Origin: Nodosilinea sp. LEGE 07298
GTDB lineage: Bacteria; Cyanobacteriota; Cyanobacteriia; Phormidesmidales; Phormidesmidaceae
Direction: 5' to 3'
Length of the DNA: 35,942 nt
NCBI RefSeq assembly: GCF_015207265.1
Contig: NZ_JADEXE010000035.1
Location: 1 to 35,942 of the forward strand
A model generated the notes under the pieces. It was not told the origin of the DNA, did no database searches, and was given only the letters and a program-made list of their open reading frames with translations. Position 1 is the stretch's first letter. The number at the start of each line of letters is the position of its first letter. Positions 26,601 to 34,955 of the stretch are shown one piece after another. Position numbers and translations under genes: made by a program.

Positions 26601-28152
26601 CGTCTTCAGGCTGGCAGTTAAAGAGCCTCAGAAATGTTTGATTGACAAAGATGTATCGCCCTTCGAGATCTTCAACATAAATTTTGGCTGGAGAGTTATT
26701 GAGGATGGCTCGCACCTCGGCCTGGCTTCTGTAAAGATCTGCGGTGCGTTCTGCAACTTTTTGCTCTAAAGAGTGATTCAAGTCTTGCAGGGCGAATTCG
26801 GCCTGTTTGCGATCATGAATGTCCGTAGCCATCCCCAGCCACTGTATCTCTTGATCAGACTGAACACGAATAGCTTGGCTCAGATGCCAGCGATAGTCGC
26901 CATTGGCTCGGCGCATCCGGTACTCGGTTTCATAGGGCATCCCTGTTTGCACCGACTCTATCCAGCGATCGCGCACTCGCCCTAAGTCATCGGGATGCAC
27001 AATGAATTGCCAATCAAAATCCATGAGTTGCTCTGTGGCCAAGCCGACATACTCACCCATGCGCTTGCTGACGTAAATATGACGCCCTGCCATATCAGCA
27101 CTCCAGACAATCTGAGGAGCCAGTTCGACTAACAAACGGTAACGTTCTTCGCTATGGCGTAAAGCTCGTTCCACTCGGATACGCTCAGTGACATCCTGAG
27201 CCATCACCAGTTCAGCCCGTCGCCCCGCAAACTCCAGGGCATACGACACAATCTCAACTTGAATGATCTGGCCATCTTGCAGGCAATGCTGCCAGACACC
27301 AGCTATATCTAACCCAGATGCAACCTGGGCCACATTTTCCAGTAGTCGGGGCACGTCTTCTGACGGGCGAATATCGGCAATAGTCATGGCTAAAAATTCT
27401 GCCCTGGCATAGCCATATTTGGCGATCGCGGCATCATTCACGGCCAAAAACCGCAGGGTTTCCAGGTCGTATACCCACATGGGTTGAGGGTTACAGTCAA
27501 ACAGGTGGCGGTAGGTAGCCTCCTGGGCTATCAAGGTCTCGCGAAACTGGCGATTTTCCTGGGCAATCCGCTGGAGTTCTTGCTCGATACGTTGTTCGCT
27601 CTGTTCGCGTTCGGCGTCAAGCCGTTTCTGCTCGCTGATATCGGTAAAATAACCCACTACCTCCTGGGGCAATCCCTGGGCATCCCGAAAGAGCACGAGG
27701 GTGTCACGGATCCACAAGTAATGCCCATCCCGATGGCGAAGCCGGTAATCATGTTGCAGCTTGCTCTGCTCAAACAGCTGAGGAATGGCCGCAAACACAC
27801 CGGGGGCATCTTCCGGGTGCAGGCGCTGCTCCCAAAAATCCGGTTCTGCTTTGAACTCGTCTGGGGTATAGCCCAAAACCGTCTCAAGGCTTTGGCTGAT
27901 GTAGGTGCAGGAGTAGGGAGGGTCAACCTCGCAACTGTAGGTGGTCGCTGGGCTGGTGTTGGCCATCCACTGCAGCCGATGGGTCTGGGCCTCAAGTTGG
28001 GCAATGTGTCGCTGCTGTTGCTCAAGCTGCCCTTGCTGCTGAGCGTAAGCCTGGCGAGCAGCATCACGCTCAGCCGCTAGCTGGTGGGCGTAATGCTGAA
28101 TCTGGGCCTGAGCTGCCTCTAGTTGCTGTTGGACCTGGTGATCTCGGGACAT
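23620..28152 (-). CDS. Eight-PAS hybrid sensor histidine kinase
   Basis: 1510 residues from the ATG at 28152; an upstream TTG at 28200 adds 16 residues without support. After a Gln-rich coiled coil there are eight consecutive PAS/PAC units (about 64-174, 212-324, 334-449, 479-589, 601-709, 722-839, 849-964 and 979-1089) joined by near-identical DRKQAE-ALRKSE linkers. The kinase core follows, with H1121 (ANMSHELRTP), N-box LLSNAVKF, DTGIGI and GTGLGL, and then a receiver with D1437 (LILMDIQMP). It has no membrane segments. The kinase and receiver modules closely resemble those of the neighbouring giant kinase, so the two are paralogues. Its own output partner is not evident. Confidence 0.93.
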   Translation of the reverse strand: MSRDHQVQQQLEAAQAQIQHYAHQLAAERDAARQAYAQQQGQLEQQQRHIAQLEAQTHRLQWMANTSPATTYSCEVDPPYSCTYISQSLETVLGYTPDEFKAEPDFWEQRLHPEDAPGVFAAIPQLFEQSKLQHDYRLRHRDGHYLWIRDTLVLFRDAQGLPQEVVGYFTDISEQKRLDAEREQSEQRIEQELQRIAQENRQFRETLIAQEATYRHLFDCNPQPMWVYDLETLRFLAVNDAAIAKYGYARAEFLAMTIADIRPSEDVPRLLENVAQVASGLDIAGVWQHCLQDGQIIQVEIVSYALEFAGRRAELVMAQDVTERIRVERALRHSEERYRLLVELAPQIVWSADMAGRHIYVSKRMGEYVGLATEQLMDFDWQFIVHPDDLGRVRDRWIESVQTGMPYETEYRMRRANGDYRWHLSQAIRVQSDQEIQWLGMATDIHDRKQAEFALQDLNHSLEQKVAERTADLYRSQAEVRAILNNSPAKIYVEDLEGRYIFVNQTFLRLFNCQPEDVIGKTIHEFFPPEIADTLRANDLLLLEQGGVQQFEEIVRVNGEDRVFLSNKFLLRDEQGEVYALCGMSTDITDRKAVEVALKESRDYLQAMLAALPDHVFRVNRDGVYLDFYPSDSTLEITGLATLVGRTMADVLPPEVAQAHRHRIEQALTTKTIHVSEQQVEVDGALLVREVRVAPCGPNEVLFVIRDITDRKQAEFALRKSEARYRQLFNSIEDGFCIAEVLFDDAGTPYEHRFLETNPAFSRHCSLASVDPVGKTASELIPGIASFWNDLYAQVLSTGKPIRQDIRSDVLDCWFEVMVCPVGEDAPHQVFVLFADVGDRKQAEIALQNLSDRLSLVLEAGQLGVWSWDLDRQLYWDAALCRMYGIPESSQFVPWQAWRSQVHHDDIERVEALRQAAIEGAPFTGVEFRIWRTDGELRWIQSFAQVQHDAQGNPARMVGINRDITDRKQAETALRKSEEELRLFINASSDIVYRMSADWQEMKPLDGKEFLVSTDSASKSWLDPYIPPVEQARVWAAIQHAIQTKSPFELEHQVLRQDGTVGWTFSRAIPVLNEQGDILEWFGAASDISDRKRAELDLQHTNAELARATRLKDEFLANMSHELRTPLNAILGMTEGLQEAVFGPLTDRQRRSLTTIETSGNHLLSLINDVLDVAKIESGQFELDYAAVNVCLLCNSSLTLVKQQAHKKGLHLETHVPSTLPEIYGDERRLRQMLVNLLSNAVKFTPAGGRITVTAAYTALSPEAIASNRDLIHPEVDLAATVGILTLSVADTGIGISPENAKKLFQPFIQIDSALNRQYQGTGLGLALVKRIAEIHGGKVTLTSAVGSGSCFTLQLPIIPIPTGHVSATAIPSSIEAIAPLDPTTAPLILLAEDNAANVSTITAYLTAKGYALIVAQNGLEAVNLATSANPDLILMDIQMPQLDGLEAIRQIRQNPALANVPIVALTALAMPADRERCLAAGADDYISKPIRLKQLAQMIPTLLAKPSAE

Positions 28153-28316
28153 TGTAAATGTATTCCCTGAAAACCTTGGTGTTTGGTGGCTGAAGTACAA
28201 ATTAGTCTACAAGGATATTTGAAAGAGTTAGCCTAAAAGCTAAATCGGAGTTGTTCGATGTTACTTAGAGACCATCTGCGTTTTGTAGAAATGGTTTCCG
28301 TGAGAGATTCAGCTGC

Positions 28317-28342
28317 TGAATAGTTGCCTGCGCGCACAACTA
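28317..28342. repeat. Hairpin repeat, copy 2
   Basis: The 26 bases beginning TGAATAGTTGCCTGCGCGC match copy 1 (13521-13546) except for one base, leaving a six-base stem TAGTTG / CAACTA. It abuts the methyltransferase relic and supplies the only candidate start codon (TTG at 28324) of that relic, as though it replaced the original 5' end. Confidence 0.6.
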
Positions 28343-28977
28343 GCCGAGCTGGCTTGCCCCACACTTATACAGAACGGTTGTTACAGTGGGCCGATTTTCA
28401 GCCGGGAGACACGGTTCTGGAACTGGCGGCCAGCTTTGGCTATAGCGCGATCGCCCTGGCCCAGCGCTACGGTGTCCGGGTCGTAGGGGTCGAGAAAAAT
28501 TCGGAAAGCGTAGCCCGAGCCCAGGCCAACATTCGGGCGGCGGGGCTAACCAGTCAAGTGGAGGTGATCGAAGGCGATGTGTTTCACCTGGAGCGCATTC
28601 CAGAACAGTTTGACTATGTGCTGGCAGAGGCGATTTTGACAATGCAATCGGTGCCGGGCAAGGTGAAGATCTTGCCCGGCGTAGGCGATCGCCTCAAGCC
28701 AGGCGGGAAATTCCTCTCCCATGAGCTGATCGCCCGTGACCGGGAAGACGAGATCCATCAAGCCCTCGCCGCCACCCTGCGGGTAAACTCCACGCCCCTA
28801 TCCGCCGCCAACTGGCAAAAAGCCCTGGAAGAGGCAGGCTTAACTCTGGTTAAACAGCAGACCGGCCCAATGGGATTGCTCACCCCTGCCCGCGTGATTC
28901 AAGACGAAGGGGTAGTCGATGCGGCTAAGTTTGCCTGGAATGTACTGACCCATCCCCCCATTTATCAGCGTCTGCTA
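28324..28977 (+). pseudogene. Truncated class I SAM-dependent methyltransferase
   Basis: The frame encodes a Rossmann methyltransferase: RAGLPHTYTERLLQWADF, the SAM motif VLELAASFGYSAIALAQRYG (31-50), the acidic motif VVGVEKN (53-59), VIEGDVFHLE (81-90) and QFDYVLAEAIL. The family-like sequence stops after THPPIYQRLL (residue 218). From there the frame reads 23 unrelated residues to a stop at 29047-29049, because the DNA has become cupin-coding sequence in another frame. The 5' end also looks damaged: no ATG or ribosome-binding site is present, and the first seven codons fall in the dispersed repeat. Its original job in the NO cluster is unknown. Confidence 0.75.
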
Positions 28978-29204
28978 TTTTCTGTCTGGCCAGGGGCACC
29001 GATATTGCAGAACACACCTCCACCCGTAATGCTGTGGTGCAGGTGTTAGAGGGGCAGGGGACCCTGACCTTGAACGGTGAGGACGTTGAGTTGGTGCCGG
29101 GGCGGTTTGTCTTCATGCCCGCCAATGCTCCCCATGCCTTGAAGGCGACCGAGAATCTGGCGTTTCTGCTGACTCTAAGCGATCCTGTACCGTCAGAGAA
29201 TTAA
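28977..29204 (+). pseudogene. Cupin fragment fused to the methyltransferase relic by deletion
   Basis: In a frame different from the methyltransferase, codons from 28977 read IFCLARGTDIAEHTSTRNAV, then VVQVLEGQGTLTLNGEDVEL and VPGRFVFMPANAPHALKATE, ending at TAA 29202-29204. This is the larger, C-terminal part of a small single-domain cupin with its metal-ligand region (EHTSTRN, PHALKA). The N-terminal part and start codon are missing, so an out-of-frame deletion joined two neighbouring genes. Its stop overlaps the stop of the convergent Crp/Fnr gene. Confidence 0.75.
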
Positions 29205-30116: not shown

Positions 30117-30132
30117 CATGAGCTACCTCATA
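30117..30132 (+). promoter_or_regulatory. Crp/Fnr-type operator upstream of the YwiC-like gene
   Basis: CATGAG-CTAC-CTCATA forms a dyad ATGAG-N4-CTCAT (30118-30131) with FNR spacing. Nineteen bases after position 30132 comes GGCAGAGTA (30152-30160), identical in sequence and distance to the norB promoter. The dyad centre would lie at about -41.5 with CAGAGT as the -10 hexamer. Confidence 0.7.
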
Positions 30133-30190
30133 CAGGCTGCGGCTGTGATTTGGCAGAGTAAACCTATCCCTTGCATCAGGAGACTGGGCA

Positions 30191-31036
30191 ATGCAATCTT
30201 CATCCCTCAATTTGCAACCCTCTTTGAGCACCGTTAAAAAGCGGAATCCCCAGGCCTGGTATCGTCCCATCTTTTCCCCAGAGCATGGGGTTTACGTGGT
30301 GCTGCTGGTCGCCTTCAGCACCGGAGCCGCTGCCGCCCAGGCCTGGACCTGGACCACCACTCTGGCCCTGCTCGGTGCCTTTGCTGGATTTCAGGCAGAA
30401 CATCCCTGGATGCTGCAAATTAAGCAGCGCAGCAGTATTAAACCTCGCTTCTGGGTCTGGGGTGGTCTGTATTCCCTGGTGGCGGGCGGTATTGCCCTTT
30501 ACCTGCTGTGGCATCAGGGTTGGTGGCTGTCCCCCTTGTGGATCATTTATGTAGGAGCCTTCGCTGCCTTTTGTGTGGATGGTATGGCGGTGTTTCGCCG
30601 GGGGCAAAAGTCGGTCGCCAATGAGCTGATCACCTTTGCGGCGGTCTGCCTATCGGCACCCTTTGCCTACATTGTCACTACAGGCACACTCGTTCCTGAG
30701 CTCTGGGGGCTCTGGGCGTTGAACACGCTGTTTTTCTCCAGCGCTATTTTTACAGTGAAGTTTCGGAAATCGAAGACCCACTCGGCGGTGCCGGGCGAGG
30801 TGTTTCATGCGATCGCCACCCTGCTCATTCTCACCCTGGCTTGCTTCGGTCTGTTGACCCCTCTCACCGCCAGCGCTTTTAGTGTGGCCCTGCTCAAGTT
30901 CGGCATTATTCTCTGGCAGCGCGACTGGTATTGCACCACCAAAATTCAGCGGGTAGCCCTGCTTGAAACCAGCATGGCGCTGTTGTTCTTGGTGGTTACA
31001 GCCCTGTCGCTATTGCCTGCGCGCTGGCCTGCTTAA
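30191..31036 (+). CDS. ywiC: YwiC-like membrane protein
   Basis: 281 residues with about nine hydrophobic helices. The family opening PIFSPEHGVYVVLLVAF (26-42) contains the P-x-EHG motif, and a conserved-looking H-x-I in GEVFHAIATLLILTLAC lies near 203-219. The function is not established. In Bacillus subtilis ywiC lies in the fnr/nar anaerobic region, which agrees with its position here between a Crp/Fnr gene and an NO reductase gene. AGGAGA (30178-30183) stands seven bases ahead of the ATG. It is preceded by its own Crp/Fnr-type dyad and followed by a second one, so it is a separate transcription unit from norB. Confidence 0.85.
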   Translation: MQSSSLNLQPSLSTVKKRNPQAWYRPIFSPEHGVYVVLLVAFSTGAAAAQAWTWTTTLALLGAFAGFQAEHPWMLQIKQRSSIKPRFWVWGGLYSLVAGGIALYLLWHQGWWLSPLWIIYVGAFAAFCVDGMAVFRRGQKSVANELITFAAVCLSAPFAYIVTTGTLVPELWGLWALNTLFFSSAIFTVKFRKSKTHSAVPGEVFHAIATLLILTLACFGLLTPLTASAFSVALLKFGIILWQRDWYCTTKIQRVALLETSMALLFLVVTALSLLPARWPA

Positions 31037-31436
31037 GCAGTAGCCCGATAAAAAGCTCGATTCGATTCGACTCGAATTGTTTCAATTAATTTTGCAAAGA
31101 TTGCTTCAATCAGTGGGGATTTTTCGTTAAGGGGAATCTCAACGGATTGAGGCATTTTTGTTAGCTACAGACTCAATTCATGGGATCTCAAAATGTTACA
31201 AAAGCCTTTAAGTTTTCATCTCCGAAAGACCGTTGCAATCATAACATTTTGCAACAATAAACGATTCGATCGAAAGGCGTAAAACGGAGATTTAGCAAGG
31301 CTTTTAGACGTTTATTCTCTATCTCTATGAGCTATCTCATAGAGGTCGCTATTCCTTTTGGGCAGAGTAGGAACTGAACTTAGACGCAGGGTTAATCAGT
31401 CGTTCTATTTTCTGCCTATTTAAGCGAGATGTAACG
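31037..31436. promoter_or_regulatory. 400-base norB upstream region
   Basis: This stretch has no gene. It is AT-rich compared with its neighbours and contains nested inverted repeats: AAAATGTTA (31190-31198) / TAACATTTT (31242-31250), and GTTGCA (31232-31237) / TGCAAC (31250-31255). The Crp/Fnr-type dyad at 31323-31344 follows. The upstream repeats may be a terminator for the YwiC-like gene or additional regulator sites. Confidence 0.5.
31323..31344 (+). promoter_or_regulatory. Crp/Fnr-type operator upstream of norB
   Basis: A perfect dyad: arms CTCTATGAG (31323-31331) and CTCATAGAG (31336-31344) around CTAT. The core ATGAG-N4-CTCAT has FNR geometry with the TGA read by E/R of the recognition helix. 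GGCAGAGTA (31361-31369) follows 19 bases after position 31341, so class II activation with a start near 31375 is expected, giving a leader of about 60 bases before the ATG. Confidence 0.78.
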
Positions 31437-34597: not shown

Positions 34598-34955
34598 ATG
34601 GCAACTTTCCCCATCGACACCACCGTAGGCGCGATCGTGCGCGACTATCCGGACCTGTCGCGATTGTTTGAGCAGGTCCAAGGTCGATTACTGCTGTGGC
34701 GGCAACAAGACCTTGACCGAAGCCTGCCAGCAAAAAGGCCTTGACCCCCAGGTGTTTCTGGCCCAGCTAGAGGATTATGCCGCCACCACCGATGTGCCGG
34801 AGATAAACGTCGCCGCCCTGTCCTTAACCGAACTAACCGGCCATATCGAACGCATTCACCACGCTTACCTCCATGAGGAATTGCCCCGTCTGGAGAAAAT
34901 GGTGACTAAGGTAGGGCTTGCTGAAAAAGTGCCTAAAGCTAAGTGTACAGAGTGA
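34598..34955 (+). pseudogene. Frameshifted and truncated RIC/ScdA/YtfE iron-sulfur repair protein
   Basis: The ATG at 34598, with GGAG seven bases upstream, opens MATFPIDTTVGAIVRDYPDL then SRLFEQVQ, the N-terminus of the RIC/DUF542 domain. The expected continuation VDYCCGGNKTLTEACQQKGL then DPQVFLAQL lies in another frame, and removing one base near 34680-34684 restores a perfect join. The second frame runs LTELTGHIERIHHAYLHEEL, the start of the hemerythrin-like di-iron domain, but stops at 34953-34955, so most of that domain (roughly half of a usual 220-residue protein) is gone. RIC proteins repair NO-damaged Fe-S clusters, which fits the norB context. The gene appears dead unless frameshifting yields a short CCGG-domain protein. 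Confidence 0.82.

Follow-up and report, generated by a model that had tools for sequence, protein, structure and literature searches.

Introduction

Cyanobacteria make and meet nitric oxide (NO). Among the regulators of the Crp/Fnr superfamily, DNR and NnrR have NO-linked targets such as norB and the operator TTGAT-N4-ATCAA, and DNR senses NO through heme. Enterobacterial FNR has TTGAT-N4-ATCAA sites as well; it carries an N-terminal cysteine cluster for [4Fe-4S] and the residues E209 and R213 in its recognition helix. The operators of CRP (TGTGA-N6-TCACA) and NtcA (GTA-N8-TAC) both differ from the one described below.

For cyanobacteria, HcpR sites of the form TTGAC-N4-GTCAA were predicted in Synechocystis (slr0449) and Anabaena variabilis, and the slr0449-type regulator was assigned to nitrogen-oxide metabolism (Rodionov et al., 2005; PMC1274295). 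This two-species prediction is the only described cyanobacterial NO regulon in the open-licence papers searched. Transcription of norB in Synechocystis is raised in far-red light, with no regulator named in the accessible portion of the report (PMC10830646). In the open-licence literature, no description of the Crp/Fnr subfamily or of the motif presented here was found, and among the matches listed for the motif strings none was on cyanobacteria by title.

Results

A Crp/Fnr-Type Regulator Beside ywiC and norB in Nodosilinea

The window, i.e., the whole stretch of 35,942 nucleotides of Nodosilinea sp. LEGE 07298 that was analyzed, contains a decayed methyltransferase-cupin cassette, a regulator gene on the minus strand, a ywiC-like gene, norB, an alternative oxidase gene (AOX) and a broken ric gene in this order (Table 1). 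The methyltransferase has no N-terminus, as its match covers residues 38-243 of 273 alone, and it continues, in a different frame, into the cupin's C-terminal half. The start and the body of ric lie in separate frames, and its C-terminal part or half is absent. The frames beyond the ric remnant resemble pieces of mobile elements by eye.

Table 1. Genes and predicted promoter elements in the window, with positions counted from its first letter.
Feature	Position	Strand	Description
Decayed methyltransferase-cupin cassette	28324..29204	+	Methyltransferase match; cupin part read by eye
Crp/Fnr-family regulator, 253 aa	29201..29962	-	ORF; Pfam cNMP_binding and HTH_Crp_2; recognition helix GITYEECVRLFK; orthologues and alignments
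ywiC operator, ATGAG-CTAC-CTCAT	30118..30131	+	Dyad centre 30124.5, at -41.5 from the predicted start; composite score 40.2
ywiC extended -10, TGG-CAGAGT	30151..30159	+	Predicted +1 at 30166 (A, with T at -1), from the 66-site consensus
ywiC-like gene, 281 aa	30191..31036	+	PF14256
norB operator, perfect 9-4-9 dyad CTCTATGAG-CTAT-CTCATAGAG	31323..31344	+	Dyad centre 31333.5; composite score 37.0
norB -10, CAGAGT	31363..31368	+	GGG in front, so that the T of the extended -10 is missing; +1 predicted at 31375 (T, after C)
norB, quinol-type nitric oxide reductase, 771 aa	31437..33752	+	Pfam NorB_cytochrome_c-like and COX1
AOX, alternative oxidase, 239 aa	33838..34557	+	PF01786; downstream neighbor of norB on the same strand
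ric/ytfE remnant	34598..34955	+	ORFs with ScdA_N and RIC matches; start of frame read by eye

The regulator belongs to the Crp/Fnr superfamily, with matches above cut-off to PF00027 (70.1 bits) and PF13545 (38.2 bits). Its monomer model (mean pLDDT 87, pTM 0.59) has structural matches to CRP, GlxR, DNR (3dkw) and HcpR, among others, and CRP-type regulators are its best PDB sequence matches. Apart from this fold, the protein differs from the described groups. In the alignment with CRP, the cAMP pocket corresponds to FAAPALFGNSIAPATV and is not kept; the NCBIfam equivalog for CRP scored 55.9 bits against a cut-off of 266, and TIGR03697 for NtcA 28.6 bits against 244.95. With FNR it shares the class II position of -41.5 and the E and R of the recognition helix, but it lacks the N-terminal cysteine cluster and has just two cysteines, 176 and 197, one of them in the recognition helix.

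Among 386 genomes of the phylum, 35 had relatives, comprising the window's own protein, 28 long matches with 46-71% identity and six partial matches (genomes G385, G278, G042, G382, G195, and G199). The next full-length matches below this set had 36% identity or less. A scan of one genome per species yielded 80 named loci, which represent the best 80 of 199 relatives and include Nostoc, Microcoleus, Tychonema, Leptolyngbya, Fischerella, Chlorogloeopsis, and Gloeocapsopsis. The orthologues are spread across many cyanobacterial families; they were assigned from percent identity and from a quick tree whose branches are long. In the genus of the window the regulator is present in 8 of 26 genomes. 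Six of the seven congeners besides the window have a dyad by the methyltransferase or ywiC, and none was seen in the stretch read of the seventh (G397). Identity to the window regulator reaches 72% in other families (among the best 80 of 199 relatives) and is 50-54% within the genus, a hint of transfer or an old duplication.

In the recognition helix, Y194, E195, E196, C197, and R199 are invariant in all 16 aligned orthologues (motif Y-E-E-C-x-R-L), in agreement with the initial annotation, which had noted that the E and R reading TGA are kept. The annotation had also pointed to Val at the position of Ser212 of FNR; as a specificity feature this residue did not hold, because V, I, L, or T occur there in orthologues sharing the operator. 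Ser stands at this position in G060, and no composite site was found in that genome. One of the invariant residues, C197, is a cysteine within the DNA-recognition helix; the protein of locus L082, which lies outside the 16 aligned sequences, has Gly instead. H139 and H143 are also invariant and lie on the long dimerization helix. By eye, H139 aligns with position 128 of CRP, where the residue contacts cAMP across the dimer, and H143 follows one turn further; a heme or metal site at this pair would be a guess.

Two Composite Promoter Sites in the Window

The two dyads reported upstream of ywiC and norB were confirmed by direct reading. ATGAGCTACCTCAT forms the ywiC operator, and ATGAGCTATCTCAT (31327-31340) is enclosed by the perfect dyad of norB. 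At both promoters exactly 19 bases separate CTCATA from GGCAGAGTA, which begins at 30152 and 31361. With one mismatch tolerated, the dyad alone matched the window twice against 1.16 expected matches, and at least two matches occurred in 34 of 100 shuffles; by itself, the dyad is weak evidence for a non-chance origin. When dyad, spacer and GGCAGAGTA were searched together with up to three mismatches, two matches were obtained, both exact, with a shuffle mean of 0.07 and two matches in none of the 100 shuffles. In the whole 7.25 Mb genome, TGAG-N4-CTCA-N18..24-CAGAGT is found exclusively at the two window sites, and the reversed control gave no match.

The two -10 regions had been called identical. 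This is true of GGCAGAGTA, but the wider element is an extended -10 (TGn-CAnnnT), which is present for ywiC, whereas GGG replaces TGG at norB. The norB site of the window is among the 5 of 66 sites described below that deviate from the four-mark promoter layout.

Three other readings were considered. An assembly artifact in the window is disfavored by the same operator and layout in congeners. A candidate third target in the Nodosilinea genome (G000:C595, TATGAGCTACCTCAAA) was rejected, as it has no -10 at the fixed distance and sits at the end of an unlabeled frame. A sigma-54 promoter, suggested by the likeness of TGGCA to its -24 box, is not supported, as no -12 box is present; to our knowledge, sigma-54 is absent from cyanobacteria.

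A Common Operator and Promoter Layout

In the 80 named loci, TGAG-NTAN-CTCA is the commonest dyad of the type NNNN-NTAN-NNNN (40 copies in 35 loci), and the half-sites TGAC, TGAT, and TGAA occur around this center 0, 1, and 9 times. With a free center, TGAA-N4-TTCA has 101 copies, TGAG-N4-CTCA 48, TGAT-N4-ATCA 43, and TGAC 14. The NTAN center is found in 40 of the 48 TGAG dyads compared to 10 of the 158 TGAA, TGAC, and TGAT dyads. As TGAA is commoner than TGAG once the center is free, the specificity of the operator rests on the NTAN center, the longer palindrome and the promoter. The operator consensus is approximately wCTATGAGSTASCTCATAGA, in a form of about TATGAGCTAGCTCATA; a conserved STAS center is unusual among Crp/Fnr sites. 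In the remaining 45 loci, the flanks examined contain no exact TGAG-NTAN-CTCA, and some of them have one-base variants such as TGAGCTAGATCA 5′ of the methyltransferase.

The distinction from FNR sites drawn in the initial annotation proved correct, with 20 copies of ATGAG-N4-CTCAT in the 80 loci against 4 of TTGAT-N4-ATCAA; TTGAC-N4-GTCAA occurs once. The same counts separate the regulator from DNR and NnrR, from which it differs also in targets that include the methyltransferase-cupin cassette. A DNR-like way of working is conceivable for the regulator.

Dyads were counted as oriented sites when a listed target gene sits 20-450 bases downstream. After removal of 9 duplicate or cut sites from 75, 66 distinct sites remained, which come from 57 loci and do not stand for 66 independent genomes. 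With the dyad center at -41.5, T-15 and G-14 are each present in 62 sites, A-11 and T-7 each in 64, T-1 in 50, and A+1 in 52; the four marks T-15, G-14, A-11, and T-7 occur jointly in 61 of the 66. The sites had been chosen by dyad and target gene and not by the -10, which is therefore independent evidence. The consensus shows an extended -10 (TGn-CAnnnT), a probable start at T/A and no recognizable -35 box. The proposed class II geometry was thus borne out, with the dyad at -41.5 from a start read from the consensus. Exceptions to the spacing are the globin-like gene of L191, where the promoter box is 4 bases closer, and sites in L046 and L048.

Two dyads have the layout on both sides. At L157:8941 a single dyad separates AOX-ywiC from ric and has the complete set of promoter marks in each direction, and another at L045:12339 (G289) lies between PPOX and methyltransferase genes. 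Apparently, one predicted site can serve two divergent promoters.

Distant homologues with 36% identity in G041 and G021, which belong to the same phylum outside the class, also have TGAG-N4-CTCA in nearby loci (5 copies in 19.9 kb of L087, 3 in 14 kb of L249, 1 in 10 kb of L256, 0 in 19.9 kb of L088). The dyads of L087, L249, and L256 mostly have a free center and no fixed -10.

Coupling of the Operator to the Regulator

The initial annotation had proposed a scan of related genomes to see whether the operator tracks orthologues of the regulator, which it does. The exact composite site was found in 27 of the 35 genomes with the regulator and in 9 of the 351 without it (Fisher p = 7e-27, kinship ignored), while the reversed pattern occurred in 4 of the 386; many of these genomes are related, and the counts are not independent events. 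Comparison between genomes thus establishes the predicted operator, its near-fixed promoter layout and its coupling to the regulator.

Among the nine regulator-minus genomes, G093 (norB) and G121 (globin-like gene) have good operators 5′ of regulon genes (L241:6732 and L247:8580), and no regulator was detected in either, profile search included; these operators may reflect a recent loss of the regulator or another reader of the site. G021 carries the 36% homologue, the matches in G030 and G058 look like chance from the surrounding frames, and G061, G154, G226, and G299 make up the rest of the count. Variant sites are present in three (G172, G376, and G131) of the eight regulator-plus genomes that lack the exact composite. 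No site was found in the stretches read of G060, G080, G278, and G382; the eighth genome is G199.

A separate search for the methyltransferase alone, in 175 genomes of the class, yielded 34 with the gene. In nine the regulator was known beforehand, eight of them with the site and the window's decayed copy without it. In the other 25 genomes, the site precedes the gene in 15 of 18 with the regulator, counting fragments or split genes (G409, G505, G514, G517, and G521), and in 0 of 7 without it (Fisher p = 0.0002). As to the three misses, G415 has the dyad TGAGCTAGCTCA and a -10 displaced by one position, G421 has TGAGCTAGCGCA, and G505 has TGAGGTAGATCA and an N within its spacer.

After training on 37 sites, a matrix recovered 29 of 30 testable methyltransferase promoters, with 0 of 30 in the reversed control. 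These loci are not identical to the training genomes, although near relatives remain; 2 loci were not testable and 7 identical ones were left out. Three promoters (G455, G497, and G500) are shared with the 25-genome comparison. A looser tally (56 of 59 methyltransferase promoters) combines training sites with test sites, repeats genomes and uses background windows that contain real sites.

For norB, the initial annotation had named promoters lacking the dyad beside the same regulator as evidence against its proposal. Both genes occur together in 6 of the 386 genomes. In four of them the dyad lies over the norB transcription unit, as expected, but G334 has a TTGAC site there and G070 has neither. 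In part, this counts against the proposal.

Target Genes

The 66 sites precede the methyltransferase (42), the globin-like gene (11), norB (3), C36, a 160-residue family of no known role (3), cupin (2), and ywiC, AOX, ric, PPOX and an OsmC-like gene (one each). The loci were taken around the regulator, and distant targets are under-counted in these numbers. Operator sites distant from the regulator lie 5′ of the globin-like gene in, e.g., G039, G099, G203, G336, and G354. The predicted core target is the methyltransferase-cupin cassette, often together with the small globin-like protein, which norB, ywiC, ric, and AOX join in some species. Now and then the targets include AOX, the OsmC-like protein (named by eye), the PPOX protein or a gene resembling thioredoxin reductase.

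The prominence given to norB in the initial annotation was not sustained, as it is a minority target and 29 of the 35 regulator genomes have no norB match. A site directly at norB was found in three cases, namely the window, Nostocales HT-58-2 (L163) and G093. Elsewhere norB is reached through operons, namely globin-like gene-norB in G172, methyltransferase-cupin-globin-like gene-norB in G027, C36-thioredoxin-reductase-like gene-small protein-norB in G005, and methyltransferase-cupin-ywiC-norB in Petrachloros (L181) and the congener G386.

Pfam and NCBIfam give no NO-related name to the core methyltransferase or cupin, and we know of no NO role for either. Genomes that lack the regulator account for 7 of 25 with the methyltransferase and for 15 of 35 with the globin-like gene. 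No operator was found 5′ of the decayed cassette of the window, with a best matrix score of -29.8 in 28100-28330. Here, the core target has been lost along with its operator, and norB and ywiC retain theirs.

Autoregulation is not a general rule, as seven dyads near regulator starts scored above 5 and none above 15.

A Small Protein of Predicted Globin-Like Fold

The globin-like gene encodes a protein of 160 residues (e.g., L049:6201-6692), which is present in 35 of the 386 genomes. It has no relative by sequence in Pfam or PDB. Its model (mean pLDDT 83, pTM 0.82) is structurally closest to the globin domain of Thermosynechococcus elongatus (Z 9.9, rmsd 2.9, 131 residues). The 50 entries listed, at 7-19% identity, comprise 49 globins or flavohemoglobins and a single nitric oxide synthase with a globin domain (syNOS). 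This VIA-align list is a re-examination of Foldseek matches with E-values of 0.18 or worse; among helical proteins, chance matches can occur up to a Z of about 13. By helix order, the invariant H108 stands at the end of helix F and the invariant H86 in helix E. The protein would resemble globin-coupled-sensor globins and single-domain globins in predicted fold and in a fitting invariant His, but no globin match by sequence was obtained. The globin-like fold is taken as a lead from the model.

A Second Operator in Front of the Same Genes

In G014, G207, G229, G247, G286, and G334, all genomes with another Crp/Fnr protein, the sequence TTGACYTAAGTCAA was found 5′ of norB, in agreement with the predicted HcpR sites, and in G014, G229, G247, and G334 a Crp/Fnr gene with the helix GT(I/V)(P/S)ATLSRAFY adjoins norB. 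From operator and position, these four norB-linked proteins are presumably slr0449 orthologues. In a quick tree with long branches, whose deep forks are open, they fall into a group of 8 (support 91) apart from the rows of the window-type regulator.

Like the window regulator, the HcpR/slr0449 type belongs to the Crp/Fnr family, stands beside norB and has an N4-spaced dyad with a TGA core and a small norB regulon. It differs in the operator (TTGACYTAAGTCAA versus TATGAGSTASCTCATA), in the recognition helix (GT(I/V)(P/S)ATLSRAFY versus GITYEECVRL) and in overall sequence (24-29% identity). In G334 both proteins coexist, each with its own operator, TTGAC over norB and TGAG over methyltransferase-cupin-ywiC.

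The order norB-ric-ywiC is found under the TTGAC operator in G247 and G286, and the same genes are, with AOX, direct or operon targets of the TGAG operator. In G002, which has a methyltransferase and no regulator, TTGACTTAAATCAA occupies the same promoter position. This site and the TTGACYTAAGTCAA sites of norB would represent an operator swap.

Discussion

The best explanation of these data, which we consider probable, is a Crp/Fnr activator with its own operator that works from class II promoters on an NO-linked regulon. A dimer of the regulator would bind the TGAG-STAS-CTCA dyad centered at -41.5 and contact RNA polymerase at promoters with an extended -10 and no -35 box. Such a contact would explain both the kept spacing and the missing -35 box. 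In Nodosilinea, the regulator would control ywiC and norB, the latter followed by AOX and once also by ric. NO, or something that follows closely from NO, would switch it on; the regulon would remove NO and shield respiration. Class II activation is very likely from the layout, a dyad at -41.5 being compatible with activation but not proof of it. Binding by the window regulator itself, activation rather than repression, and the manner of signal sensing are what we infer from sequence. Of the self-contained NO regulon with its own operator code suggested at the outset, the subfamily with its own operator stands, as the operator tracks the regulator; NO is the likely signal because of the target genes norB, ric, AOX and ywiC and the globin-like protein.

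The signal is where the most serious competitor differs. The same regulator, operator and class II promoters might answer to low oxygen, over-reduction of quinones, sulfide or an organic hydroperoxide, and norB, AOX and ric would then have been recruited late. The rarity of norB in regulator genomes, the occasional AOX, OsmC-like, PPOX and thioredoxin-reductase-like targets and the neutral database names of methyltransferase and cupin fit this reading. It is nevertheless unlikely, as norB, ric and ywiC are also found together under the TTGAC operator, the regulator of which has been placed in nitrogen-oxide metabolism (PMC1274295), and as the core globin-like protein fits NO. An activator responding to NO thus remains preferred, also over a repressor that blocks polymerase from -41.5 until NO or another signal frees it. 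A promoter with an extended -10 can function when no activator is present, and the geometry alone would permit such a block, but in 61 of 66 sites the distance from the dyad to the -10 is exact, which contact activation demands and repression does not. As the consensus has no -35 box either, a repressor appears quite improbable.

That the dyad is read by another protein, with the neighboring regulator linked by chance, is suggested by the operators of G093 and G121, and it is more improbable still. Against it speak the contrast at one orthologous gene (15 of 18 versus 0 of 7), the genome-wide counts for regulator-plus and regulator-minus genomes, and the sites far from the regulator, as at the globin-like gene. 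Mere chance resemblance of two promoters has a negligible probability. The dyad alone at one mismatch is close to expectation, but none of the 100 shuffles reproduced the composite pair, and the comparative data refute it.

Beyond the window, we regard as evenly balanced the broader proposal of a Crp/Fnr subfamily that has not been described before. It would govern a TATGAG-STAS-CTCATA NO-defense regulon with a core of an uncharacterized methyltransferase, a cupin and a new divergent globin. The targets norB, ric, ywiC and methyltransferase would have been exchanged with an HcpR-type regulator by operator swapping within otherwise similar class II promoters.

For cyanobacteria, this would mean a second regulator, and the regularity of its operator allows the promoters to be listed from sequence; sites occur in Nostoc, Microcoleus, and Leptolyngbya loci. 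Protein families of no known role would gain a testable place in one stress response. The two operators may further provide a natural case in which two regulators hold the same targets through different half-sites.
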